From the NCBI GenBank assembly GCA_030692365.1, contig JAUYCC010000019.1, forward strand, positions 1-64,000: a DNA stretch of 64,000 nt, read 5' to 3'. A model generated the notes under the pieces. It had not been told where the DNA came from. It worked only from the letters and a program-made list of their open reading frames with translations, and ran no database searches. This document shows, piece after piece, positions 825 to 14,802 of the stretch. Position 1 is the first letter of the stretch. Each line of letters starts with the position of its first letter. The translations under genes and the position numbers were made by a program. This DNA comes from Pelolinea sp. GTDB lineage: Bacteria; Chloroflexota; Anaerolineae; Anaerolineales; Anaerolineaceae.

Positions 825-2207
825 ATGGTCGAAATTTTAGACACAACTTTACGTGAAGGGGAACAAACACCATACGTCAACTTTACGGTTGACGAGAAGG
901 TGCAGATCGCTCAGATGCTCGACAGTGTTGGCGTGGACATGATCGAAGCAGGCGATCCAAGTGTTTCCCCAAATGTGGCGACAGCAATAAAGCGCATCGC
1001 CTCTCTTGGACTTCGGGCTGAGATTGTCGCCCATTCCATTGCCTCATGCCCAGGCATAGACAAGGCAAAAGCCTGCGGCGCAGATCGTGTGGGAATCTTC
1101 TATGCCACATCCAAAATCCATTTGGACGCAAAACTACACAAGACGCCAGAGGAAGCGATTGCCATCATCACCGAGCATATCGCCTACGCACGCGGACTTG
1201 GTTTGAAAGTTCGTTACACATCTGAAGACGCGACTCGCACGGATTTTGAATTCCTGGTACGAGTATGCAATGCCGCAATTAAGGCGGGCGCAGACCGAAT
1301 CAGTTATGCGGATACGTTGGGAATCATGCAACCTCATATTTTTTATGAGCGTGTGCACGCCCTGCGTGAGAGATTACTTCCCTGTAAAATTGACCTGCAT
1401 TGCCACGATGATTATGGACTCGCTCTGGCAAACGCAATGGCAGGGATTCGCGCTGGAGCAGACTGCATCCACACTACGGTCAATGGACTTGGCGAACGCA
1501 CAGGGATTCCTGATTTGGCTGAAACTATTGTCGCATTTCATAATCTTGAGGGGGTGGAGAAATATAACATCCAGCCGTTGATGGAAATATCAGCTTATCT
1601 TGAAAAAGTATCGGGGTTTTTCATCGCGCCAAACAAACCCATCACGGGACAGAATGCATTTACGCACAAAAGTGGCATCCACACGAACGGCATTCTCAAA
1701 GACCCACGCACGTATGAACCATTTGACCCGTCCCTGCTGGGGCGCGAGCGCAAGATTGTGATTGATAAATACACAGGCAAAAGTGCAGTGAAGGCTCGTT
1801 TGGATGAATACGGGATAGAGGTTAGCGCTGCGGAGTTGGAAGTGATCGTGACCCACATCAAAAATCTCGGCGACCAGCGCAAACAAATATTCGAAACAGA
1901 CATCATCGATATAGCCGAGCAGGTAACGGGGCGCGAAATGGACGTCATCCCGCATGACATCAACGCGTTGGTGATGCTGGAAGTCGAGTCACATGTGTAC
2001 ACGTCGATGGTGGTGCGCCGTCTGCGTGGATTTACGAACGTGAGCCATGTTTATGAGATCACGGGCGATTATGACATCAGCGCTTTTGTCAATGTGGAGA
2101 ATGTGGTGGCGTTGAATAACTTGATCGAGGAGGTTCGCACTATTAAAGGCGTAAAACGTACCGAGACACGCATAGTGCTGAAGAAATATAACGGAAATGG
2201 CAATTAG
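825..2207 (+). CDS. lysS: Homocitrate synthase with C-terminal RAM-like domain
   Basis: Condenses 2-oxoglutarate with acetyl-CoA to homocitrate, the first step of the alpha-aminoadipate lysine pathway. The 460-residue protein starts with the TIM barrel of the isopropylmalate/homocitrate synthase family: TTLREGEQTP near residue 7 and the metal-binding HCHDD at 192-196. The segment from about residue 378 to the end is an alpha/beta domain resembling the Lrp/AsnC ligand-binding (RAM) fold. In Sulfolobus LysS this domain takes the place of the LeuA regulatory domain and is linked to feedback control. Sited first in the cluster, with homoaconitase next, it is better read as homocitrate than isopropylmalate or citramalate synthase. 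The ATG has AAGGAA ahead of it. Confidence 0.88.
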   Translation: MVEILDTTLREGEQTPYVNFTVDEKVQIAQMLDSVGVDMIEAGDPSVSPNVATAIKRIASLGLRAEIVAHSIASCPGIDKAKACGADRVGIFYATSKIHLDAKLHKTPEEAIAIITEHIAYARGLGLKVRYTSEDATRTDFEFLVRVCNAAIKAGADRISYADTLGIMQPHIFYERVHALRERLLPCKIDLHCHDDYGLALANAMAGIRAGADCIHTTVNGLGERTGIPDLAETIVAFHNLEGVEKYNIQPLMEISAYLEKVSGFFIAPNKPITGQNAFTHKSGIHTNGILKDPRTYEPFDPSLLGRERKIVIDKYTGKSAVKARLDEYGIEVSAAELEVIVTHIKNLGDQRKQIFETDIIDIAEQVTGREMDVIPHDINALVMLEVESHVYTSMVVRRLRGFTNVSHVYEITGDYDISAFVNVENVVALNNLIEEVRTIKGVKRTETRIVLKKYNGNGN

Positions 2208-2256
2208 GTGACAGTCAATTTGGAAGTGACAGTCACATCAAACTAAAGGAGATTCT

Positions 2257-3513
2257 ATGGGTACGTTGATTGAAGAAATATTTTCACGCAAGATAGGCAT
2301 GTCTGTTCAGACAGGCGAAATTCTGTTATTGGACGTGGATTACATTATGAGTCACGACAACACTACGCCATTGGCAATTAAGGCATTTCGTGAGATTGGT
2401 AAACCAATTTTCAATAAAAACCGAATCGTGTTGCATCTCGATCATGCTTATCCTGCCCCGAATGTTTTAGCTGCAGAAAATCACAAAAAGATCTTCGATT
2501 TTGTTAAGGAACAGGGTTTGCCACATTTTCACAGGCAGGGCGTATGCCATCAAGTGATGATCGAAGAAGGATACATCACGCCTGGCGCAATTGTCATCGG
2601 CGCGGACTCACACTCAAACACGTACGGCGCGCTGGGCGCATTTGGCGCGGGTTTGGGATCGACGGAAATCGGAGTGGCTTGGGTGACGGGCAAGTGCTGG
2701 TTCAAAGTCCCTGAGACGATTCGCATTGAACTGACTGGCAAAACCCAGCCAGGAGTCTTTGCCAAGGATGTGATGCTACATATCGCAGGTTTGATGGGCA
2801 TGGATGGCGGAACTTATCGCGCAATTGAATTTGGCGGTGAATACATTGAATGCCTGCCGATGAATGAGCGCATCGTTTTCCCAAATATGTCTACAGAGAT
2901 TGGCGCAAAGTGCGGACTCATCGCCGCTGATGAGGTGACGATCAAATATCTCAAAAACGAGACCCCAGCCAAAGGTCCATTTGAGACGTTTGGTCCAGTC
3001 AATCCGCGTTATGAGCGCGTCGTCGAAATTGATGTGTCCACGCTTACACCGCAAGTTGCCTGCCATCCTGATGTAGATCATGTCAAGCCCTTAGAGCAGG
3101 TTGAAGGCCTGGAAGTAAACGAGGTTTATATCGGTACCTGCACGAATGCGCGTTATGAAGATATCGAGATTGTGGCGAACATGCTCAAAGGGAAAAAAGT
3201 GAATCCATTTACGCGCGTGATTGTTACGCCTGCCAGCGACCGAATTCATAAGAAGGCGATAAGGAATGGTTTGATCGAAATTTTATTGGATGCAGGTTGT
3301 ACTGTGACAGGAACTGGATGCGGCGCTTGTATTGGTCGTCACGGCGGTATCCTTGCGGCAGGCGAGCGCGCGTTGACTACGATGAATCGTAACTTCATTG
3401 GGCGCATGGGAAGCCCGCTTGCGGAGATTTACCTTGCAAGCCCAGCCACTGCCGCCGCCACCGCGTTGACGGGTAAGATTACTGACCCGCGTAATTATTT
3501 AGAGAATCTTTAA
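2257..3513 (+). CDS. lysT: Homoaconitase large subunit
   Basis: Catalytic subunit of homoaconitate hydratase, which converts homocitrate to homoisocitrate through cis-homoaconitate. The 418 residues match the large-subunit length of prokaryotic isopropylmalate isomerase/homoaconitase. [4Fe-4S] cluster cysteines are visible at C295 (IGTCTN), C355 and C358 (GTGCGACIG). GADSHSNTYGALGAFG near residue 110 is the substrate-pocket signature. A strong AAAGGAG lies ahead of the ATG. The small subunit follows, and the homocitrate synthase upstream and homoisocitrate dehydrogenase downstream favour the lysine rather than leucine role. LeuC activity cannot be excluded, since these enzymes can be dual-function. 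Confidence 0.88.
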   Translation: MGTLIEEIFSRKIGMSVQTGEILLLDVDYIMSHDNTTPLAIKAFREIGKPIFNKNRIVLHLDHAYPAPNVLAAENHKKIFDFVKEQGLPHFHRQGVCHQVMIEEGYITPGAIVIGADSHSNTYGALGAFGAGLGSTEIGVAWVTGKCWFKVPETIRIELTGKTQPGVFAKDVMLHIAGLMGMDGGTYRAIEFGGEYIECLPMNERIVFPNMSTEIGAKCGLIAADEVTIKYLKNETPAKGPFETFGPVNPRYERVVEIDVSTLTPQVACHPDVDHVKPLEQVEGLEVNEVYIGTCTNARYEDIEIVANMLKGKKVNPFTRVIVTPASDRIHKKAIRNGLIEILLDAGCTVTGTGCGACIGRHGGILAAGERALTTMNRNFIGRMGSPLAEIYLASPATAAATALTGKITDPRNYLENL

Positions 3514-3601
3514 CCACTAAGCGTACAAAGAAACACAAAGGTTTTAAATTTCCTTCGTGCAACTTCATATTCTTAGCGGTGAAAAAATAAAGGAGACCAT
3601 C

Positions 3602-4099
3602 ATGGGCAAAGCCTGGACGTTTGGCGAGAACTTGAACACGGACGAGATCATTCCCGGCCGTTTCAATATCACGATTGACCCGCTTGAACTTGCAAAGAAT
3701 GTCTTTTGTGAGATCAAGGCTGAGTATGCAAAAAATGTAAAGCCTGGCGATATCATCGTCGGCGGGCAAAATTTTGGATGCGGCTCTTCACGCGAACATG
3801 CGCCGATTGCCATCAAAGGCTCGCAAGCAAAGTGTATCATTGCATCTTCGTACGCGCGCATTTTCTTTCGCAACGCTATCAACATTGGCTTGCCGATCCT
3901 CGAATGTCCCGAAGCGGTCGCAGATATCGAAGAAGGAAATGAAGTAGATGTTGACCTTGCTAGCGGGAAGATCAACAACATCACGAAGGGACGTACGTAT
4001 CAAGCTCGCGCTCTGCCTGATTTTGTTTTGAAAATCGCAGATGCGGGCGGCATTGTGAACTTTCTCAAAGATCACGATATTCAAGAACTTTTAGCATAA
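3602..4099 (+). CDS. lysU: Homoaconitase small subunit
   Basis: Swivelling-domain subunit that completes the homoaconitase active site. The 165-residue product has the small-subunit motifs LNTDEIIPGRF (residues ~11-21) and FGCGSSREHAP (~58-68). The ATG at 3602 is preferred because GGAG lies 7 nt ahead; an upstream in-frame ATG at 3557 has no ribosome site. The preceding 88 nt hold no gene. It pairs with the large subunit at 2257-3513. Confidence 0.88.
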   Translation: MGKAWTFGENLNTDEIIPGRFNITIDPLELAKNVFCEIKAEYAKNVKPGDIIVGGQNFGCGSSREHAPIAIKGSQAKCIIASSYARIFFRNAINIGLPILECPEAVADIEEGNEVDVDLASGKINNITKGRTYQARALPDFVLKIADAGGIVNFLKDHDIQELLA

Positions 4100-4149
4100 C
4101 GGAGCACGCAATGCGTGTAGCATGGAGCGTGGTCCGTAAAGGAGAACTC

Positions 4150-5145
4150 ATGTATCGTATCTGTCTTTTACCTGGCGACGGCATCGGCCCCGAAGTGATT
4201 GACTGCGCCGAGCAGGTCTTGCGCACCCTGCCATTGGATTTTGAATTTACCCACGCCGAAATCGGATTCAGTGCCTATAAACGACTCGGCACACCCCTGC
4301 CTGATTCCACGCTGGAGAAAATTCGCAATGCCTCCGCTGCCTTATTTGGCTCCGTTACCACGCCGCCAGACATCCCAGGCTATTTTTCACCCGTCGTGCG
4401 AATGCGCCAGTCACTGGACTTGTATGCTAACCTGCGCCCAATCCGTTCCATTCCACATCCAACCTCCCGCGCAGGCATTGACCTGGTCATCGTTCGAGAA
4501 AATACCGAAGGTTTGTACTCTGGCATCGAGCGTCTCGAAGATGATGGCCAGCGTGCCATTACCGAACGAGTAATAACCCGCAAAGGCTCGGAAAGAATCA
4601 TCCGCAAAGCCTTTGAGATTGCCCGCCAAACGAATCGCAAGACCGTTCATCTTGTTCACAAAGCCAATGTACTGCGTCAAACTTGTGGATTGTTTCGCTC
4701 AGTCGCGCTCGAAGTTGTGAAGGATTATCCTGACATTGTGATGTACGAAATGCTCGTGGACACTTGTGCGATGGAACTTGTCCGCGCGCCTGAGCAATTT
4801 GAGGTCATCGTCACGACAAATTTATTCGGCGACATCTTGAGCGATGAAGCCTGTATGTTCGTTGGCGGACTTGGCGTGGCAGCTTCCGGTAACATCGGTG
4901 TGGATGCGGCGGTCTTTGAGCCAGTTCATGGCAGCGCACCGACTTTGGCAGGCACAGGCAAAGCAAACCCCATCGCCACCGTTCTTGCTGCAGCTATGAT
5001 GTTGGATTATCTTGGCGAAAAAGAACAAGCCATTCGCTTACGTAATGCAGTTGAAAGCAGCATCGCTGTTGGACAGGTAACGCCTGATCTGGGCGGTGTG
5101 TTAACGACGAATCAAGTAACAGAAAAAATTATTCAGAGATTGTGA
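4150..5145 (+). CDS. hicd: Homoisocitrate dehydrogenase
   Basis: Oxidative decarboxylation of homoisocitrate to 2-oxoadipate with NAD+. The 331-residue protein is a beta-decarboxylating dehydrogenase: LLPGDGIGPEV at residues ~5-15, YANLRPIRSIPH ~93, RENTEGLYSG ~115, and the metal-binding TNLFGDILSDE in the second half. Length is at the short end of the family, as for Thermus HICDH. The start at 4150 follows AAAGGAG; the longer in-frame start at 4111 would place that site inside the gene. Leucine-pathway isopropylmalate dehydrogenase and isocitrate dehydrogenase are the alternatives; position in the cluster decides. Confidence 0.87.
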   Translation: MYRICLLPGDGIGPEVIDCAEQVLRTLPLDFEFTHAEIGFSAYKRLGTPLPDSTLEKIRNASAALFGSVTTPPDIPGYFSPVVRMRQSLDLYANLRPIRSIPHPTSRAGIDLVIVRENTEGLYSGIERLEDDGQRAITERVITRKGSERIIRKAFEIARQTNRKTVHLVHKANVLRQTCGLFRSVALEVVKDYPDIVMYEMLVDTCAMELVRAPEQFEVIVTTNLFGDILSDEACMFVGGLGVAASGNIGVDAAVFEPVHGSAPTLAGTGKANPIATVLAAAMMLDYLGEKEQAIRLRNAVESSIAVGQVTPDLGGVLTTNQVTEKIIQRL

Positions 5146-5220
5146 CGGGGTCCGAAGTCTCCTGACCTCGGTTATGCAAAATTGAAGACTTTGCACTCTT
5201 AAATAAAATAAGGTGAAATC

Positions 5221-6069
5221 ATGATCCGTGTTGGATTTTTATATACCCGTTTGCGTGTCGAAGAGAAGTACCTGCTCGAAGAATTGGAGGGCAGACCCGA
5301 GGTCGAAGTGACGCGCATCTCCGACGGCGAGAAATTCTTCGACATCACACAAAAACCAGCCGAAGTGGATGTGCTCTTCGAGCGATCCATCTCGTACTCG
5401 CGTGGACTTTACATTTCACGTATCTTTGAAGCGCATGGCATCCCCGTGGTCAATTCATCTTTAGTGGCCGACCGATGCGGAGACAAATATGTCACAAGTC
5501 AGCTCCTCGTGCAGAACAGAATCCCAACCCCACGTGTAGTGATGGCCTTTGACGAGGAATCTGCCTTGGGGGCGGTTGAAGCAGTCGGTTATCCGTGCGT
5601 GCTCAAACCTGTCATCGGTTCGTGGGGACGCCTGCTTGCCAAAGTGGATAACCGTTATACGGCAGAATCTTTCATCGAACACAAAGCATCGCTGGGAATC
5701 AACCATCAAATTTTTTATGTTCAGGAATATATCAACAAACCTGGCCGTGACATCCGCGCTTTTGTGATTGGGGACGAGCTCATCTGTGCAATCTATCGTT
5801 CATCCGATAATTGGATCACTAATACCGCCCGCGGCGGCGTGGCGACGAATTGTCCCATAACTGATGAAATGGCTGACTTGTGCCAACGCGCGGCTCGCGC
5901 CATCGGCGGCGGACTACTTGCGCTTGATCTTTTCGAGGTTGAAAACGGATTTACCATCAACGAGATCAATCACACGATGGAATTTCGCAACAGCATTGCC
6001 ACAACGGGCGTGAACATTCCGCAAAAGATGGTGGAGTATGTGATTGCGAAGGCAAGTGCAGAATTATGA
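5221..6069 (+). CDS. lysX: LysW:alpha-aminoadipate ligase
   Basis: ATP-grasp ligase of the RimK type that joins alpha-aminoadipate by its amino group to the C-terminal glutamate of the carrier LysW, protecting the amine for the later steps. The 282 residues match Thermus LysX. The [13 protein letters not shown] nucleotide-binding segment lies near residue 130, PGRDIRAFVIGDE follows mid-protein, and NEINHTMEF begins at residue 247 and continues with RNSIATTGVNIP, very like Thermus LysX. Ribosome site AAGGTGA. The paralogue at 9398 diverges exactly in that last segment, so this copy is assigned to aminoadipate and the other to glutamate; that split is inference. Confidence 0.88.
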   Translation: MIRVGFLYTRLRVEEKYLLEELEGRPEVEVTRISDGEKFFDITQKPAEVDVLFERSISYSRGLYISRIFEAHGIPVVNSSLVADRCGDKYVTSQLLVQNRIPTPRVVMAFDEESALGAVEAVGYPCVLKPVIGSWGRLLAKVDNRYTAESFIEHKASLGINHQIFYVQEYINKPGRDIRAFVIGDELICAIYRSSDNWITNTARGGVATNCPITDEMADLCQRAARAIGGGLLALDLFEVENGFTINEINHTMEFRNSIATTGVNIPQKMVEYVIAKASAEL

Positions 6070-6315: not shown

Positions 6316-6343
6316 TTGACATATTTTGTGCGGATGGTAAAAT
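6316..6343 (+). promoter_or_regulatory. Sigma-70-type promoter upstream of argG
   Basis: TTGACA (6316-6321), 16-nt spacer, TAAAAT (6338-6343). The predicted start is near 6350, just before the ATG of the Arg-rich leader ORF at 6354. Layout matches the promoter at 548-575 base for base in spacing. It splits the biosynthetic cluster into a lys part and an argG-onward part. Confidence 0.68.
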
Positions 6344-6353
6344 ATCAAATACT

Positions 6354-6458
6354 ATGATTGCGGTGTTTGCGTTACTTCGTATCCGGCGTCGGGAACCCAC
6401 TTCTAAGAGAAGGTTGGGATTTTTTCGTTTGGACAACATGAATACAATGGTGCACTGA
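6354..6458 (+). CDS. Arginine-rich leader peptide (34 aa) upstream of argG
   Basis: A 34-codon ORF begins 10 nt after the -10 box, so its message would be nearly leaderless. The peptide contains LLRIRRREP and SKRRLGFFR, with Arg at positions 9, 11, 12, 13, 19, 20 and 25 encoded by cgt, cgg, aga and agg codons. The codons for residues 15-22 lie inside a hairpin followed by six T. A second terminator follows at 6478. This is the classical layout of a ribosome-stalling attenuation peptide whose signal would be charged tRNA-Arg. Its function is inferred; no homologue is known to me. Confidence 0.6.
   Translation: MIAVFALLRIRRREPTSKRRLGFFRLDNMNTMVH
6396..6425 (+). terminator. First attenuator hairpin in the argG leader
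   Basis: CCCA-CTTCT (6396-6404) pairs with AGAAG...TGGG (6408-6418, two-nucleotide bulge GT), followed by A and six T (6420-6425). It lies within the Arg-rich leader ORF, so a ribosome stalled at the upstream Arg codons would change whether it forms. Confidence 0.6.
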
Positions 6459-6477
6459 AACATACCTAAGTCAACCC

Positions 6478-6510
6478 AAACAGCCCTCCTTCTCAAGAGG
6501 GCTGTTTTTA
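6478..6510 (+). terminator. Second terminator hairpin directly upstream of argG
   Basis: AAACAGCCCTC (6478-6488) pairs perfectly with GAGGGCTGTTT (6497-6507) around an 8-nt loop, and the transcript continues as TTATTTT. It ends about 15 nt before the argG ribosome site (AAGGAG, 6523-6528), so argG expression from the 6316 promoter requires read-through. Confidence 0.75.
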
Positions 6511-6534
6511 TTTTCCCATATCAAGGAGTAAGAA

Positions 6535-7806
6535 TTGAATTCAAAATCAAAACCGCAGGTGAAGAAAGTTGTACTGGCCTATTCAGGAGGGCTGGATACA
6601 TCCGTGATCGTGCCATGGTTGAAAGAAAACTATGGCTGTGAAGTCGTTTGTTTTTGCGCGGACGTGGGGCAGGGCGACGAAGACCTGGTTGGTCTTAAGC
6701 AAAAAGCGATCAAGAGCGGCGCGAGTCAGTTCGTTTTGCATGACATGAAAGAAGAATTCGCCAGCGAATATCTCTTCCCTATGCTCAAGATGGGCGCTGT
6801 GTACGAGCATAAGTATTTGCTCGGCACATCCATTGCACGCCCACTGATCGCGAAACACCTTGTTGATGTTGCGCACGAAGTTGGCGCGGATGCAGTGGCA
6901 CACGGCGCGACGGGTAAAGGCAATGACCAGGTGCGATTTGAGATAACTGTAATGGCGCTTGACCCACGTTTGAAGATCATCGCTCCATGGCGCGAATGGG
7001 ACATCCGCTCACGTGAAGACGCGATTGCTTATGCGGCGAAATATAACGTGCCTGTAACCGCAACTATCAAGTCCATTTACAGCCGCGACTCAAATATGTG
7101 GCACCTCTCACATGAGGGCGGCTTGCTCGAAGACCCGTGGAACGAACCCGAAGAAATTATGTACCAAATTTCAGCTTCGCCCGAGAACGCCCCTGAACAG
7201 GTTGAATATGTTGAAATGGAATTCGAAAGTGGCAATCCTATCACAGTCAATTGGGAAAAACTTTCGCCAGCAAAAATCATCGAAACACTCAATGCAATTG
7301 GTGGCGCGAATGGCATTGGCCGAGGCGACCTCGTTGAAAATCGACTTGTCGGCATGAAGTCGTGTGGCGTTTACGAAACTCCAGGCGACACCATCCTGCT
7401 CTATGCTCATCGCGAACTTGAATCCCTCGTCATTGACCGCGAGACCATGCATTTCAAGGAGATGGTTGCAGTGAAATACGCTGAACTTGCTTATAACGGT
7501 CTTTGGTTCACGCCTCTGCGCGAAGCGATTGACGCCTTCGTCAATTCCACGCAAGGTCCTGTCACTGGCACAGTGCGCCTCAAACTTTACAAGGGTAACA
7601 TCATCTCCGCGGGCCGCAAGGCGCCATTCAGTTTGTATCGTGAAGATTTCGCCACGTTTGGTCAGGAGGATGTCTACGACCAGAGTCACGCGGAGGGATT
7701 CATTCGCCTCTTCGGTCTGAGCATGAAAGTCCGCGCGCTCAACAACTTGCCCGTCTCTGGTCTTGACATGCCTAAGCCCGATTATTCACGCTTCAAGAGG
7801 GACTAG
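6535..7806 (+). CDS. argG: Argininosuccinate synthase
   Basis: Joins citrulline and aspartate with ATP to argininosuccinate. The 423-residue protein has the N-type ATP pyrophosphatase loop [15 protein letters not shown] near residue 14, plus [14 protein letters not shown] and the long C-terminal synthetase domain ([18 protein letters not shown] near the end). The start is TTG, chosen because AAGGAG lies 6 nt before it and the sequence begins [18 protein letters not shown]. argH follows after one nucleotide. Its place between lysX and lysW, rather than in a separate arg operon, is the main hint that arginine is made on the LysW carrier here. Confidence 0.95.
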
Positions 7807-7807
7807 G

Positions 7808-9172
7808 ATGACGATACTTTGGGGTGGACGTTTCGCCCAAAAATTCGACACTGCGGCTTGGGATCTTAACTCCTCTTTGCCTGTGGATCAACGCATGGCA
7901 ATTCAAGATGTGGATGGGAGTCTCGCGTGGGTGAACGCTCTGCACAAAGCAAACATTCTTTTGGATGAAGAGCACACTTCAATCGCTCTCGGGCTTGCTG
8001 CCATCAAAGAAGAATTCTCTAGCGGGCAGTTTTCTTTCGTCCCCTCCGACGAAGATATTCATACTGCTGTCGAGCGCCGCTTGACAGAACTCATCGGCCC
8101 GACAGCAGGCAAATTGCACACGGGACGAAGTCGCAACAATCAAGTCACCACCGATTTTCGTTTGTGGATGTTGGGAGCCATTCCTGCGTTGGACTCTGCG
8201 CTGCTAAATTTTCAAGCGGCATTGGTTGAGCAAGCCGAACTTGCAGGTGAAGCACTCATGCCTGGTTACACTCACCTGCAACGCGCCCAACCAATTTTGC
8301 TGGCTCACTGGTGGCTGAGTCACTACTGGCCATTACAACGCGACCGCACTCGCCTCAAAGATTTAATAGTGCGTGTCTCTGTTTTGCCTCTTGGATGTGG
8401 GGCGCTGGCAGGTACCCCAGTCCCCGTTGATCGCACCGCGCTGGCTGTGTCACTTGGTTTTGCGGAGGCTTCGCCCAATAGCCTCGACGCTGTCTCAGAC
8501 AGAGACTTCGCCGCCGAGTTTTTATTCTGCGCTTCGATGATCGGGATTCATTTGAGCAAACTGGCTGAGCAAATCATTTTGTTTACCAGCACCGAGTTTG
8601 GGTTCTTTGAGCTATCAGACGCGTTCTCAACAGGTTCAAGTCTCATGCCTCAGAAGAAGAATCCCGATGTCTTTGAATTGACTCGCGGTAAGTCTGGTAC
8701 ATTATTGGGTTTGCTCACTGGATTTATTGTAACACTCAAAGGATTGCCATCAACTTACGATAAGGATCTGCAAGAAGATAAAGCACCTGTCTTCACTGCA
8801 ACCGATACATTGCTTACAATTCTTCCCGTCATCACTGGCGCATTGCGGACAATCACTGCGAAACTCGAGCGAATGCGCACTGCAATTGACTCTTTCATGA
8901 TGGCGACCGATTTGGCGGATTATCTGGTGACCAAGGGAATCCCGTTTCGAGAGACTCACACGATAGCAGGAAATGCCGTCCGTGCGGCAGGTGAGAAAAA
9001 GATAGGGTTGGATGAAATGCCCCTCGAAGTGTATCAGGCTCTCAGTCCCGCGTTTGAAGCGGATGTATATCAAGTCTTCGACCCGATGAGATCCGTCGAA
9101 AAAAGAAATGCGATTGGCGGCACGAGTCCCCAATCCGTTAAGAATCAAATTAAACAAATTAAAGGAGAATAA
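7808..9172 (+). CDS. argH: Argininosuccinate lyase
   Basis: Cleaves argininosuccinate to arginine and fumarate. The 454-residue protein of the aspartase/fumarase superfamily carries the signature GSSLMPQKKNPD near residue 276, with the catalytic serine, plus TGRSRNNQ near 99 and GYTHLQRAQP in the middle. The ATG at 7808 starts MTILWGGRFAQKFD, which is where ArgH proteins begin; an in-frame ATG 45 nt upstream lies inside argG. The argG stop and this ATG are one nucleotide apart, so translation is probably coupled. lysW begins 3 nt after its stop. Confidence 0.95.
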   Translation: MTILWGGRFAQKFDTAAWDLNSSLPVDQRMAIQDVDGSLAWVNALHKANILLDEEHTSIALGLAAIKEEFSSGQFSFVPSDEDIHTAVERRLTELIGPTAGKLHTGRSRNNQVTTDFRLWMLGAIPALDSALLNFQAALVEQAELAGEALMPGYTHLQRAQPILLAHWWLSHYWPLQRDRTRLKDLIVRVSVLPLGCGALAGTPVPVDRTALAVSLGFAEASPNSLDAVSDRDFAAEFLFCASMIGIHLSKLAEQIILFTSTEFGFFELSDAFSTGSSLMPQKKNPDVFELTRGKSGTLLGLLTGFIVTLKGLPSTYDKDLQEDKAPVFTATDTLLTILPVITGALRTITAKLERMRTAIDSFMMATDLADYLVTKGIPFRETHTIAGNAVRAAGEKKIGLDEMPLEVYQALSPAFEADVYQVFDPMRSVEKRNAIGGTSPQSVKNQIKQIKGE

Positions 9173-9174
9173 AA

Positions 9175-9345
9175 ATGTCTATTGTAACTTGCCCAGAATG
9201 TGCTGCGGAAATTATGTTGGAAGATGGAACCCAAGTTGGTGAGATTATTGTGTGTTCAGATTGCGGAGTTGACCTTGAAGTGACTGCTCTCGATCCTGCA
9301 GCGATTCAACTCGCGCCCATGGAGCAAGAAGATTGGGGTGAATAA
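9175..9345 (+). CDS. lysW: Amino-group carrier protein LysW
   Basis: A 56-residue carrier protein. Two CxxC pairs (C6/C9 and C27/C30) form the zinc-ribbon-like N-terminal half, an acidic segment follows, and the protein ends in the diagnostic EDWGE, whose terminal glutamate gamma-carboxyl accepts the amino group of aminoadipate or glutamate. Intermediates stay bound through LysZ, LysY and LysJ until LysK releases lysine (or ornithine). AAAGGAG ahead of the ATG lies within the last codons of argH. A second ligase follows 53 nt later. Confidence 0.93.
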
Positions 9346-9397
9346 AAACCCTCACCCCCAGCCCCAATCCCGCGGAGAGAGGGGGAGAAGAGTAATT

Positions 9398-10261
9398 ATG
9401 CAAAGACGATTAATAATTGGCGTTTTGTACTCACGTGTGCGCGTCGAGGAGAAATGGATTTTCGGCGCGATGGAAAAACGAGGAATTGATTATGACCGAC
9501 TCGATGACCGCGTAATCCATTTCGATTTGAACGACCCCGCACCGTGGCAACAATATGCCGCGGTGTTGGAGCGCAGTATCAGTTACAACAGCGGGTTGTA
9601 CGCGTTGCGGCTGTTGAACGCGTTTGGCGTGCCGACAGTGAATACTGCAGAAGTGGCTGAGATTTGCGGCGATAAGTTGATGACGAGCGCGGCGCTCACA
9701 CGTGACGGAATTCCTCAACCACATAACGCGATCGTGTTCACTCCCGAAGCCGCGCTGGAAGCGATTGAAGCGCTTGGCTACCCAGTGGTGTTGAAGCCTG
9801 TTATTGGTTCGTGGGGACGATTGCTGGCAAAGGTCAATGACCGCGACGCAGCAGAGGCGGTGCTTGAACATAAAGCCACGCTTGGGTCGGTGCAACATTC
9901 CATTTTTTACATTCAGGAATATATCGAGAAACCTGGACGGGATATTCGCACGGTGGTCATTGGTGATCGCGTTTTGACAGCGATGTATCGCAAGTCTGAG
10001 CATTGGATCACGAACACTGCGCGCGGCGGCAAAGGCGAGTTGTGTCCGATCACGCCTGAGATTGAAGATTTGTCTTTGCGCGCGGCGAAGTCTGCTGGCG
10101 GAGGCGTGCTGGCAATTGACTTGGTCGAACACCCAGAGCGCGGATTGATTGTTAATGAGATCAACCACTCTATGGAGTTTCATACAATACAGCCATTGAG
10201 CGGTATTGATATCGCGGGTGAGATAGTGGAATACACGGTGAGCACTGCGAAAGAGAAGTGA
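9398..10261 (+). CDS. argX: Second LysX-type ligase, probable LysW:glutamate ligase
   Basis: ATP-grasp ligase of 287 residues, paralogous to the product of 5221-6069: the same [25 protein letters not shown] and [12 protein letters not shown] blocks. The end of the active-site lid differs: [20 protein letters not shown] (from residue 253) replaces the HTMEFRNSIATTGVNIP-type sequence of the other copy. In Sulfolobus separate LysX and ArgX charge LysW with aminoadipate and glutamate; with argG and argH beside it, this copy is best read as ArgX. The ATG at 9398 follows GGGGGAGAAG. The short gap behind lysW holds a dispersed-repeat-like CCCTCACCCCCAGCCCC stretch. Substrate is inferred, not shown. 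Confidence 0.75.
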
Positions 10262-10308
10262 GCGATAAATATTGAACAGTAAAAAGTGAGTGATTTATTA
10301 ATAAGCCC

Positions 10309-10469
10309 GGTGGTCGAGTAGGCAACGTTTTTACACCGTACACTTTCACCGCACTGCATTTAGTGTAGTGTGGGTGTCGAGACCAACTGGGTACATATAA
10401 AAAAATATTTCTTACAAACATGGTAGTCTCGATACGCCCTTCATTATCGATTAGGGCTATTCGACCACC
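10309..10469. repeat. Intergenic element with inverted ends (REP-like), copy 1
   Basis: GGTGGTCGAGTAG at 10309-10321 is matched in inverted form by CTATTCGACCACC at 10457-10469, with GTCTCGATACGCCC just inside the right end. Related ends occur at 11541-11577 and 13578-13707. It fills the gap between argX and lysY; there is no ORF inside. Confidence 0.6.
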
Positions 10470-10493
10470 GAAGAATGGTGTTTAGGAGAACTT

Positions 10494-11528
10494 ATGACAA
10501 GTGTATCTATTATTGGCGGATCTGGTTATAGCGGCGGGGAGTTGTTGCGACTATTGTTGGCTCATCTGCTTGTGGAAGTGAAGCAGGTGACATCGCGGTC
10601 GCATTTGGGTGAGTATATATATCAAGTGCACCCGAATCTACGGAAGCAGACGCAACTCAAATTTAGTGACCCTGCCATGCTGGAGCCTGTGGATGTTCTG
10701 TTCCTTGCCCAGCCACATGGACAGTCGCAACACAAAATCAAGGAGTATGCGAAACTCGCGCCAAAAATCATTGACCTTTCGGCGGATTTTCGTTTGCGAG
10801 ACTTGGCGTTTTACGAGAAATGGTATGGCGAGAAACATTCCGCGCCTGAGTGGTTGAGTAAGTTTGTTTATGGCTTGCCCGAACTTCATCGCGCTGAGTT
10901 GGCTACTGCGAATTACGTCAGCGGGGTGGGGTGCAACGCGACGGCTAGCAATCTTGCGCTTTTGCCGTTGGTCAAATCGGATTTGATTGACTTGTCCGCG
11001 TCTGTCCTGATTGAAATAAAAGTTGGTTCGTCCGAATCGGGCGCGGTAGGAAACATGGGTTCCCATCATGCCGAGCGTGCAAATGTGATTCGCACATTCT
11101 CCGCTTTTGGTCATCGGCACACCGCGGAAGTGATTCAAGAGATGGGTTTGAGGGATGTGTCCCTAACAATGACGGCAGTGGATTTGGTACGCGGCGTGCT
11201 GGCGACAGCACATGCGAAAGTGAAACAAGGAATAGCCACAAAAGATTTGTGGAAAGCCTATCGTGCGGTAGCAACCGAAAATCCGTTTGTGCGCGTGGTG
11301 AGGGAACAACGCGGGATTTACCGCGTCCCTGAGCCGAAGATTCTTGCTGGCTCGAATTACGCCGATTTGGGATTTGAATTGGACGAGAGTAATGGGCATG
11401 TGGTGTCCATTTGCGCAATTGATAATCTCATGAAGGGCTCGTCAGGGTCGGCGGTGCAGTGTATGAATTTGATGATGGGGTGGGAGGAGACGACGGGGTT
11501 GGAGTTTGCGGGATTACATCCGATTTGA
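10494..11528 (+). CDS. lysY: LysW-aminoadipyl/glutamyl phosphate reductase
   Basis: NADPH-dependent reductase of the ArgC family that turns the carrier-bound acyl phosphate into a semialdehyde. The 344-residue protein has IIGGSGYSGGELLRLL at the N-terminal Rossmann fold and the catalytic cysteine at C147 in SGVGCNATAS. HHAERANVIRTFSAFGHRHT and the C-terminal NLMKGSSGSAVQ are typical of ArgC/LysY. Only one copy exists in the cluster, so if both lysine and arginine are made on LysW this enzyme must serve both. Ribosome site AGGAG. A classical ArgC acting on N-acetylglutamyl phosphate is the alternative, but no argB, argJ or argA is nearby. Confidence 0.85.
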   Translation: MTSVSIIGGSGYSGGELLRLLLAHLLVEVKQVTSRSHLGEYIYQVHPNLRKQTQLKFSDPAMLEPVDVLFLAQPHGQSQHKIKEYAKLAPKIIDLSADFRLRDLAFYEKWYGEKHSAPEWLSKFVYGLPELHRAELATANYVSGVGCNATASNLALLPLVKSDLIDLSASVLIEIKVGSSESGAVGNMGSHHAERANVIRTFSAFGHRHTAEVIQEMGLRDVSLTMTAVDLVRGVLATAHAKVKQGIATKDLWKAYRAVATENPFVRVVREQRGIYRVPEPKILAGSNYADLGFELDESNGHVVSICAIDNLMKGSSGSAVQCMNLMMGWEETTGLEFAGLHPI

Positions 11529-11540
11529 TAAACTCCGAAC

Positions 11541-11577
11541 ACCCTTCACAAAGAACGCTCAGGGCTACTCGACCACC
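11541..11577. repeat. REP-like right end between lysY and lysZ
   Basis: CCTTCACAAAGAACGCTCAG followed by GGCTACTCGACCACC resembles the right end of the element at 13578-13707 (CTCACAAAGAACACTCAG then AGCTATTCAACCAAC) and the right end at 10457-10469. No left end is visible, so this is a solo half-element. Confidence 0.5.
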
Positions 11578-11605
11578 ATATTAAACGAAAGCGTTTGGAG
11601 GAATT

Positions 11606-12421
11606 ATGAGTCAATCAATCACAGTTGTAAAACTCGGCGGCACGGAAGGCGTTGACTTTTCTGCAATCTGTAACGATGCCGTTGAATTATTGAAACAGGG
11701 CAAGCAACTTGTCTTTGTGCATGGTGGTTCTGCAGAAGCCAGTGCTCTTGGTGAAGCATTAGGCACACCGCCGAAGATGATTACTTCGCCATCAGGGTAT
11801 ACTTCCCGTTACACAGATCGTAAGACGCTTGAGATTTTTTTGATGGCGGTGAACGGCAAGGTCAATTCGTTGTTAACGGAGCAGTTGCAGATGTTGGGTG
11901 TCAACGCGTTTGGTTTATGCGGCTTGGATGGCAGACTCATGCAAGCCACCCGTAAAGATTCCATTCAAAGCATTGAGAATGGCAAGCGCAAAATCGTCCG
12001 CGATGATTACACGGGCAAAATTGATAACGTCAACAGTGAGTTGCTTCATTTACTATTGAGCGCTGGCTATCTGCCAGTGATTGCTCCTGTGGCAGTCAGT
12101 GAGAAAGGCGAGGCACTGAATGTGGACGCAGATCGCGCGGCTGCAATGGTCGCGTCTGCGTTAAAGGCGGAGACTCTAGTTTTGTTAACTGCGGTGCCTG
12201 GGCTGATGAAGAATTTCCCAGATGAGTCAACACTCATTCGGTTGTTGCCACAGAGTCAATTTTCGGCAGCGTCTGAGGCGGCGCAGGGTCGCATGAAGAA
12301 GAAAGTGCTTGGCGCGGAGGAAGCGCTCAAGGGGGGTGTGAGTCGCGTCGTCATCGCAGACGGAAGAATCCAAAATCCAATTTCAAATGCCATCGCGGGC
12401 AACGGAACGGTGATCCAATGA
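11606..12421 (+). CDS. lysZ: LysW-aminoadipate/glutamate kinase
   Basis: Amino-acid kinase of the N-acetylglutamate kinase family that phosphorylates the side-chain carboxylate of the LysW-bound substrate. The 271-residue protein starts VVKLGGTEG, has LVFVHGGSAEASALGE near residue 36 and SRYTDRKTLEIFLMAVNGKVN near 71, then NVDADRAAAMVASAL and the final nucleotide-site GRMKKKVLGAEEAL. It overlaps lysJ by the ATGA tetranucleotide, so the two are co-translated. The position of the kinase after the reductase is the usual LysY-LysZ order. Confidence 0.87.
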   Translation: MSQSITVVKLGGTEGVDFSAICNDAVELLKQGKQLVFVHGGSAEASALGEALGTPPKMITSPSGYTSRYTDRKTLEIFLMAVNGKVNSLLTEQLQMLGVNAFGLCGLDGRLMQATRKDSIQSIENGKRKIVRDDYTGKIDNVNSELLHLLLSAGYLPVIAPVAVSEKGEALNVDADRAAAMVASALKAETLVLLTAVPGLMKNFPDESTLIRLLPQSQFSAASEAAQGRMKKKVLGAEEALKGGVSRVVIADGRIQNPISNAIAGNGTVIQ

Positions 12422-13590
12422 ATGACAACGAAATATTTGCAATCGAAAACAAACACTCTTCGGGAACTTATACCAAACAACCACTTGTAATTGTGCGCGG
12501 ACAAGGCGCATCGTTGTTTACCGCGGATGGCACGGAATATTTAGATTGCTCGTCGGGACATGGCGTTGCCAATCTCGGTCACGCGCACCCGAAAATCGCT
12601 GAGGCGCTCTACAAACAGGCTTCTACGCTAGTCACTTTGTTCGAGACGTTTCCGAACGATCAGCGCGCGATGCTCATGGAAAAAATTACCTCCCTGGTTG
12701 ATGGCTTGGACAGAGTTTTCTTCTGCAATTCTGGCACAGAGGCTGTGGAAGCGGCGTTAAAATTTGCACGCCTCTCAACGGGACGAAAGAACGTGATCGC
12801 CGCCAAGCGGGCCTTTCACGGGCGGACTTATGGTTCTCTCTCCGCGACATTCAATAAAAAATATCGTGAAGGGTTTGAGCCACTTGTGCCAGGGTTTAGT
12901 CATGTGGCTTACAACAACATCGAAGCCTTGGATAAAGCAGTGACCGATGAAACTGCCGCGGTGATCCTCGAAGTGGTGCAAGGCGAAGGCGGCGTGTATC
13001 CCGCGAACAAGGAATATATTCAAGAGGCGCGCCGGATTTGTGATGAGCGCGGCGCGTTGTTTATTGTGGATGAAATCCAAACAGGCTTCGGCCGCACAGG
13101 AAAGATGTTTGCGATTCAGCATTTTGGAGTAACTCCTGATTTACTGACATGTGCCAAGTCACTGGCGGGAGGGGTGCCAATGGGTGCGGTGTTGATTGGC
13201 AAGAAAGTGCAGAACCTTACGCCAGGAGTCCACGGGTCTACATTTGGAGGAAATCCGCTTTCGTGCGCGGCGGCAAACACGGCATTGACTATTATGGAGG
13301 ATGAGGATTTGCCAGGTCAGGCCGAGGCAAAAGGGAACTATTTGATAGAGAAGTTGAAAAAGATTGAATCTTCGAATATTCGCGAAGTGCGCGGACTCGG
13401 CCTGATGATTGGCATTGAGATAAAGCAGAAGGTTTCGCCATACATCAAGATTTTGCAGGAGAAAAAGATCATCGTGCTGAACGCGGGGATGACGGTGATT
13501 CGTCTCTTACCACCGTTGGTGATTTCGTATGAGCAGATTGACCATTTGGTGGATGTGCTGGCGGAAGTACTAAACATGGTGGTCGAGTAG
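12418..13590 (+). CDS. lysJ: LysW-aminoadipate semialdehyde/glutamate semialdehyde aminotransferase
   Basis: PLP-dependent class III aminotransferase that converts the carrier-bound semialdehyde to LysW-lysine or LysW-ornithine. The 390 residues fit ArgD/LysJ length. VDEIQTGFGRTGKMF marks the cofactor site and CAKSLAGG the Schiff-base lysine (K247). HGSTFGGNPLSCAAA lies in the C-terminal domain. The ATG overlaps the lysZ stop (ATGA). The last four residues (MVVE) and the stop codon are encoded by the left end of a REP-like element (13578-13590), so the original C-terminus was probably a little different. Confidence 0.87.
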   Translation: MNDNEIFAIENKHSSGTYTKQPLVIVRGQGASLFTADGTEYLDCSSGHGVANLGHAHPKIAEALYKQASTLVTLFETFPNDQRAMLMEKITSLVDGLDRVFFCNSGTEAVEAALKFARLSTGRKNVIAAKRAFHGRTYGSLSATFNKKYREGFEPLVPGFSHVAYNNIEALDKAVTDETAAVILEVVQGEGGVYPANKEYIQEARRICDERGALFIVDEIQTGFGRTGKMFAIQHFGVTPDLLTCAKSLAGGVPMGAVLIGKKVQNLTPGVHGSTFGGNPLSCAAANTALTIMEDEDLPGQAEAKGNYLIEKLKKIESSNIREVRGLGLMIGIEIKQKVSPYIKILQEKKIIVLNAGMTVIRLLPPLVISYEQIDHLVDVLAEVLNMVVE

Positions 13591-13707
13591 CCTCGTGTCC
13601 GCCGGGGCATATCGACACAACCACGCTTCAAGAAACCATTCATTTTCATGTAACTTATTGGTTTCGATACGCCTCTCACAAAGAACACTCAGAGCTATTC
13701 AACCAAC
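13578..13707. repeat. REP-like element with inverted ends, copy 3 (overlaps lysJ stop)
   Basis: GGTGGTCGAGTAG (13578-13590) supplies the last codons and stop of lysJ. The inverted right end CTATTCAACCAAC is at 13695-13707, with GGTTTCGATACGCC inside. It ends 9 nt before the lysK start, which may be why lysK has no clear ribosome site. Confidence 0.55.
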
Positions 13708-13716
13708 GAATTATTT

Positions 13717-14802
13717 ATGGATCTTACAATTATGCCTCAAACAGATATTTCAACATTAATTGGTTTAGTATCGCAATACAGCCCATCAGGAAAGGAACGC
13801 GGCGCGGTGGATTGGCTCGTTGGGCGAATGAAGTTGCTTGGATATGACAAAGCTTTTATTGATGAAGCGGGCAATGCGATTGGTGTGATGGGGAAGGGAC
13901 TGAAGCAAGTGGTGTTACTAGGGCATATTGATACAGTGCCTGGGAAAATAAAAGTAGAGCAAGATGGCATCCTGCTATATGGCCGCGGCTCTGTGGATGC
14001 GAAAGGTCCTCTAGCGTGTTTTGTAGATGCGGTGGCGCGAGTTGGCAATAAAGAGGGATGGCAGTTTGTCGTCATTGGGGCGGTGGAGGAGGAACGTGAT
14101 TCAGAAGGAGCGCGGTTTGTGGCCGAACAGTATAAGCCTGATTTCGCGATTATCGGCGAGCCGAATAAATGGGACAGAGTCGCTTTGGGATACAAGGGGA
14201 GCGCGTGGGCAAATATATCAGTGAGACGCGGACAAGCTCATTCAGCGAGTGGCGAGCAGACTGCGGCTGAGGCGGCGGTGGAAGTGTGGTTAAAAATAAA
14301 GGCGTATGTTGATACATTCAACGCGGACAAGTTAAAAATGTTTGACAAATTATTGGTCACTTTAAGCGACATGGAATCAGCTTCTAATGATTTTGAGCAG
14401 CGGGCAAGTTTGAAAATCGGCATGCGTTTGCCTGTGAATGTTTCACCTACTGATTGGTATGAGGAATTAAATAATTTACTAAAGGTCTCCGGGACCTTTA
14501 GGGTCTTGGTAGAACCAACGGGTTTTGCTATCCCTGCGTGGAGAGGTTTAAAAAATACTTCGCTGGTACGCGCTTTTTTAAAGGGCATCAGGTTACAGGG
14601 CAGAGAACCACGCTTTGTCTATAAAACGGGAACGGCTGATTTTAACATTATCGCGCCTGTATGGAAATGTCCCGCCGTTGTATATGGACCTGGTGATTCC
14701 GCACTGGATCATACGCCCAATGAACATATTGAATTGGAAGAGTATGCGAAGGCGGTTGATGTTTTAATGGCAACATTATCAACGTTGGTAATGGAAAAGT
14801 AA
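13717..14802 (+). CDS. lysK: LysW-lysine/ornithine hydrolase
   Basis: M20 metallopeptidase that frees lysine (or ornithine) from the LysW C-terminus, the last carrier-bound step. The 361-residue protein shows the dinuclear-zinc motifs LLGHIDTVPG, RGSVDAKGPLACF, GAVEEERDSEGA and IGEPNKWDR in order, then the dimerisation domain, and ends FVYKTGTADFNI...PGDSALDHTPNEHI. No Shine-Dalgarno precedes the ATG at 13717; an ATG five codons later (13732) is an alternative start. If arginine also runs on LysW, this enzyme yields the ornithine needed upstream of argG; ornithine carbamoyltransferase is not in the window. Confidence 0.85.
   Translation: MDLTIMPQTDISTLIGLVSQYSPSGKERGAVDWLVGRMKLLGYDKAFIDEAGNAIGVMGKGLKQVVLLGHIDTVPGKIKVEQDGILLYGRGSVDAKGPLACFVDAVARVGNKEGWQFVVIGAVEEERDSEGARFVAEQYKPDFAIIGEPNKWDRVALGYKGSAWANISVRRGQAHSASGEQTAAEAAVEVWLKIKAYVDTFNADKLKMFDKLLVTLSDMESASNDFEQRASLKIGMRLPVNVSPTDWYEELNNLLKVSGTFRVLVEPTGFAIPAWRGLKNTSLVRAFLKGIRLQGREPRFVYKTGTADFNIIAPVWKCPAVVYGPGDSALDHTPNEHIELEEYAKAVDVLMATLSTLVMEK

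Follow-up and report, generated by a model that had tools for sequence, protein, structure and literature searches.

A trp/his-type transcription attenuator that would sense the supply of charged tRNA-Arg very probably lies upstream of argG at positions 6316-6534 of the window, as we call the whole 64,000-nucleotide stretch of Pelolinea sp. DNA analyzed here. Ribosome-mediated attenuation by Arg codons had been put forward in the original prediction, and it is the best explanation of the locus given the conservation of the leader among relatives, the co-variation of two RNA regions, and a modelled switch. All features described below are on the forward strand.

The leader begins with a sigma-70-type promoter at 6316-6343, consisting of TTGACA (6316-6321), a 16-nt spacer, and TGgTAAAAT with the -10 at 6338-6343. 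The promoter matches 11 of 12 consensus positions, carries an extended -10 TG, and is the best in 1.7 kb. Since the ATG at 6354 is 10 nt past the -10, the argG leader transcript is predicted to be nearly leaderless. The leader-peptide ORF (6354-6458; MIAVFALLRIRRREPTSKRRLGFFRLDNMNTMVH) has 34 codons, including seven for Arg at codons 9, 11, 12, 13, 19, 20, and 25, three of them consecutive. The putative sensing codons, Arg-Ile-Arg-Arg-Arg (RxRRR; CGT ATC CGG CGT CGG), occupy 6378-6392, and Arg codons 11-13 end 3 nt upstream of region 1. Sequence and fold identify region 1 (6396-6404; CCCACTTCT) as the 5′ arm of hairpin 1, which spans 6396-6418. Region 2 (6407-6418; GAGAAGG-TT-GGG) is the 3′ arm and has two possible partners, as it can pair with region 1 (6396-6404 with 6408-6418) or with region 3 (6484-6494; CCC-T-CCTTCTC), which is the 5′ arm and loop of the terminator. 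The intrinsic terminator formed by regions 3 and 4 (6478-6513) has a perfect 11-bp stem (6478-6488/6497-6507) followed by TTATTTT, with a predicted energy of -17.7 kcal/mol. The leader stop codon (6456-6458) is 3′ of region 2 and 5′ of this terminator. Downstream are the argG ribosome-binding site AAGGAG (6523-6528) and argG itself (6535-7806), which starts with TTG, encodes argininosuccinate synthase (NF001770/TIGR00032, above cut-off), and is predicted to be the first controlled gene. The promoter, the nearly leaderless Arg-rich ORF, the hairpin ending in six T (6396-6418, then T at 6420-6425), and the 11-bp terminator just before the ribosome site (6478-6507) had all been named in the original prediction, and each is present as it was described.

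Taken alone, the signals in this single sequence are only modestly above chance. There are 6 promoter-like sites compared with 2.6 ± 1.8 in shuffles, 2 terminator-like sites compared with 2.1 ± 1.6 (no excess), and the folding z score of the argG leader is -2.0. Comparison with relatives was therefore needed, and conservation is decisive. We gathered argG genes of the same order using the window's argG as query (118 upstream regions), and a covariance model made from 12 leaders was used on the argG upstream regions and on the phylum. The model places the Arg leader 5′ of at least 95 of the 118 argG genes in the order, mostly with E values from 1e-5 to 1e-27. The ORF and its Arg codons, which the original prediction had proposed to look for in related genomes, are retained in these regions. 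A short ORF containing RR, with a terminator 0-75 nt past its stop, was found in 95/98 related leader regions compared with 5/98 in the reverse-strand control. The terminator is kept in all 97 leaders analyzed, the stop codon is always upstream of it (median gap, 30 nt), and in 76 of the 97 the ATG is 7-10 nt 3′ of the -10, as in the window.

In the part of these 97 leaders upstream of region 2, no residue is as frequent as Arg (21%), and two or more consecutive Arg residues occur in 94. Among 136 CGNCGN doublets in the first 51 nt, 130 are in the ATG frame and 6 are out of frame. The position of the first RR varies from codon 6 to codon 17, and the start of region 2 is spread over all three frames (31/40/26 leaders). 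The peptide tails encoded by region 2 vary (RRSG, EKVG, EGWE) while the RNA stays. Arg doublets held in frame, together with a region 2 found in every frame, indicate that selection maintains the codons in the upstream part and the RNA pairing in the downstream part, which is what attenuation demands. Of the Arg codons in the leaders, 73% are CGT and 19% CGC, and argG coding sequence shows the reverse (18% CGT and 64% CGC). This bias is not explained by charging alone; it may reflect avoidance of pairing with the G-rich region 2 or a higher sensitivity to charging.

Nascent peptides can themselves act as sensors, as in the fungal arginine attenuator peptide and SpeFL, so the leader peptide could in principle sense free arginine (or ornithine) and arrest the ribosome, with the codons not reporting tRNA charging. 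The peptides are Arg-rich, and those of close relatives share a recurrent RxRRPxPTS core, as this explanation would expect. We nevertheless consider it very unlikely, as conservation of the peptide across families is confined to the Arg run, the number and spacing of Arg residues vary, and the RNA stem, which encodes the PTS/EGW portion, is read in different frames in different relatives. The same architecture is also found with Lys, aromatic, or branched-chain codons, as described below.

The pairing of region 2 with region 3 was evaluated by permuting partners among leaders. The mean energy of the 2:3 duplex is -16.97 kcal/mol with the leader's own partner and -14.56 ± 0.21 kcal/mol with permuted partners (z of about -11), and the best of 2000 permutations reached -15.28. 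When the leaders were reduced to 74, 51, and 13 representatives, the z scores were -10.2, -8.9, and -4.0, with 0/10,000 permutations as good in each case; with only 4 representatives, the permutation test has no power. The flanks of an AAGG:CCTT core carry compensatory changes, such as GAG/CTC, GGG/CCC, GTG/CAC, and AAG/CTT. In the window, the 2:3 duplex is predicted at -17.1 kcal/mol, next to -17.7 for the terminator stem.

These data bear on the role of hairpin 1. The original prediction had described tandem terminators, and both hairpins are there. However, a T-run of at least 5 follows hairpin 1 in 27/97 relatives, and since it is not conserved, tandem terminators are not the conserved layout. 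Hairpin 1 is mainly a 1:2 protector or pause hairpin, with its 3′ arm acting as the antiterminator strand, and the T6 run (6420-6425) is possibly an extra terminator or pause, here and in some close relatives only. One could instead propose that two ordinary terminators insulate argG from the upstream lysX operon, with an incidental ORF and constitutive argG expression. The upstream lysX is indeed on the same strand, and hairpin 1 ends in T6 here. That proposal is almost certainly wrong, as it is contradicted by the conservation of in-frame Arg codons and 2:3 co-variation, and since the promoter is upstream of the terminators, they would block argG's own promoter.

Next to the permutation analysis stands a masking model, in which the RNA under a ribosome with its A site on the second Arg was removed and the remainder folded. 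A stalled ribosome raises the predicted 2:3 pairing in 94/94 leaders in silico; at the decision point, 2:3 pairs are expected to number 10.4 on average, compared with 1.4 without a ribosome (median 0.003). The optimal stall position is at or within 6 nt of the second Arg, and shifts of -12 and +18 nt lower the expectation to 7.4 and 5.1 pairs. In the window, a ribosome with its A site at codon 12 or 13 (6387 or 6390) would cover the RNA to about 6400-6403, masking the greater part of region 1 and leaving region 2 exposed. The model is simplified in that a ribosome at the stop codon is assumed to block 2:3 formation. Without a ribosome, 1:2 pairing dominates in the majority of leaders. The window's leader is an exception: its hairpin 1 is weak, and 2:3 pairing is already predicted at the decision point with no ribosome present. 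At equilibrium, the full-length leader RNA of the window folds into the terminator whether or not a ribosome is stalled, and the switch of the window's leader must therefore be kinetic, as antitermination is accepted to be in classical attenuators.

We propose that the attenuator would work as follows. Transcription would begin 0-5 nt upstream of the ATG, with a ribosome translating the leader peptide in the wake of RNA polymerase. Under a shortage of Arg-tRNA, this ribosome would stall at RxRRR and cover region 1, leaving region 2 free to pair with region 3 as an antiterminator before region 4 exists, and polymerase would continue into argG-argH-lysW-argX-argC-lysZJK. With ample Arg-tRNA, the ribosome would reach the stop codon, which is located past region 2 and short of the terminator. 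Region 2 would then be covered or would pair again with region 1, the 3:4 terminator would form, and transcription would end before argG, giving the leader its predicted response to arginine.

The same-strand genes likely controlled with argG extend from 7808 to 14802, as judged from NCBIfam matches and ORFs. NCBIfam identifies argH (from 7808), argX/lysX (9395), argC/lysY (10494), lysZ (11606), lysJ/argD (12418), and lysK/argE (13717), and lysW (9175-9345) was read from the sequence. The lysine half of the cluster lies upstream at 825-6069, from homocitrate synthase (825-2207) to the first LysX. Two LysX-family ligases (5221-6069 and 9395-10261) and a single lysW (9175-9345) are seen in the cluster, and two ligases fit separate LysX and ArgX enzymes for lysine and arginine.

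The lysine half has a parallel leader. A promoter at 548-575 (TTGACA, 16 nt, TATAAG) precedes an ORF at 586-693 (MFKDRAGIIIEAKVKHVPPLQLGLLGLGMFRLNRN) with Lys codons at 592, 622, and 628, and a terminator at 743-775, before homocitrate synthase, has a potential antiterminator partner at 658-672. An analogous near-leaderless Lys ORF was found in 13/13 full-length close homologues of homocitrate synthase, the window's included. The homologues' leaders contain 2-4 Lys codons, commonly as KxKRKP, and their region 2 has a partner in the terminator. Permutation support from these 13 leaders alone is modest (p 0.03).

Beyond argG, Arg-rich leaders were found 5′ of carA (L076 and L077 from the phylum covariance-model search, and L174-L176) and 5′ of lysW-argX-argC (L078, phylum search). 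An argG leader from a different family of the class (L072) also came from the phylum search. Arg-codon leaders before argG, carA, and lysW-argX-argC always precede arginine genes, that is, they appear to make up an arginine attenuator regulon. Outside the order, a relaxed search found an RR ORF with a terminator in 9/40 class-level argG upstream regions compared with 1/40 on the reverse strand, and a strict promoter-based search found few leaders. Some argG genes have no leader; most of these belong to other orders of the class or follow argA. The argG leaders of other orders in L215, L221, L228, L233, and L237 have in common a core (RR...PDHPSG or similar) and a terminator that both differ from those of the order's leaders; they are possibly an independent lineage of Arg attenuators. 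As a separate observation, the window's argG and homocitrate synthase reach 85-92% identity to their counterparts in genomes of another family (f12), with argG identity of only 63-66% within the same genus. This pattern suggests either that the cluster moved from one family to another or that the contig was mis-binned (contamination of the assembly, 5.6%).

Leaders with other codons were also recovered in the phylum covariance-model search. A Tyr-Tyr-Tyr-Phe-Thr-Trp leader (MIAHSFNAYYYFTWC...) precedes DAHP synthase-aroB (L074, G401), and a Leu/Val/Ile leader (MNSLLALVVILAVLVL...) with an 11-bp match between regions 2 and 3 (CCCGTTTAGGA/TCCTAAACGGG) precedes ilvB (L075, G560). Among relatives, no branched-chain or Trp leaders were found at 26 ilvB and 13 trpE loci, so the claim of a wider regulon rests on the Arg and Lys leaders in the order and on L074 and L075 as single examples elsewhere.

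The arginine repressor ArgR (PF01316) was detected in 0/61 relatives, including the window's own genome, with 9/14 control genomes positive, and an Rfam scan of the whole window found no riboswitch and no T-box. These results, along with the codon data, bear on whether the leader RNA could be a ligand- or protein-binding element (a T-box, a riboswitch, or ArgR-like control) with dispensable translation. The strong RNA-level conservation of regions 1-4 is in keeping with such an element. It is, however, extremely unlikely here, as there is no Rfam match and no ArgR in relatives, the Arg doublets are held in the ATG frame, and codon identity tracks the downstream pathway.

Returning to attenuation by charged tRNA, we think it probable that in many Anaerolineales without ArgR, the LysW-type cluster is under two leaderless attenuators, with Lys codons serving the lysine-specific half and Arg codons serving the arginine and shared half, that copies stand before carA and lysW, and that codon switching diversifies the architecture across the phylum. 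Arginine biosynthesis is the textbook case of ArgR control, or of T-box control in Firmicutes. In place of these, Arg-codon attenuation appears to operate across a broad group of Chloroflexota in which no ArgR is detectable. Arg and Lys attenuation also appear to be paired within a single cluster that provides enzymes for both amino acids, and separate leaders would explain how both branches could be tuned separately. The roughly 100 aligned leaders are a resource for studying attenuation with leaderless starts and offer natural codon-swap comparisons. Longilinea arvoryzae KOME-1 (L003 and L331) is cultured and carries the leader, which makes the attenuator testable there.

A search of the open-licence literature found no prior arginine-biosynthesis attenuator of the leader-peptide kind. 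The original prediction knew of no such leader in LysW-type clusters, and this stands for arginine in the open literature searched. For lysine, Tsubouchi et al. (2005, J Biol Chem) reportedly described a leader-peptide attenuator in the LysW lysine cluster of Thermus thermophilus. That attenuator belongs to a LysW-type cluster and resembles the Lys leader at 548-775, but it concerns lysine rather than arginine and is from Deinococcota.

A survey of Actinobacteria described leader-peptide attenuation with Cys, Trp, and branched-chain codons and detected no conserved RNA element upstream of operons for arginine or lysine (PMC1262725). Arginine T-box leaders exist (PMC1262725); they are also a form of RNA control by tRNA-Arg charging, but they bind the tRNA directly. 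Identity with the T-box riboswitch (RF00230) was rejected for want of a covariance-model match in the window, as was ArgR repressor control, with PF01316 absent from all 61 genomes.

The closest precedent with Arg codons is orf34 of the Salmonella speF leader, which has 34 codons with consecutive Arg at 12-13, where pausing alters mRNA structure (PMC6386406). The speF leader acts on ornithine decarboxylase expression via Rho, access to the ribosome-binding site, and RNase G, with no intrinsic terminator (PMC6386406). The window's leader is likewise a 34-codon ORF with consecutive Arg. However, it stands before argG, has an intrinsic terminator, and is without the HIRRT core, and we therefore rejected its assignment to speF orf34 or DUF2618.

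The best-known relatives are the attenuators of the trp/his/leu/thr type, including the his leader with its tandem His codons (PMC9413887). Of the features that define the trp/his type, we found the clustered codons, the 3:4 terminator, and the alternative 2:3 pairing in the sequence, and the masking of region 1 in silico only. What we propose is an established mechanism whose specificity and distribution here appear not to have been described before. Like the trp, his, leu, and thr attenuators, the Arg leader has a run of regulatory codons, mutually exclusive 1:2, 2:3, and 3:4 pairings, and a terminator before the first gene; unlike them, it uses Arg codons, precedes arginine biosynthesis genes, has a near-leaderless start, and belongs to Chloroflexota.
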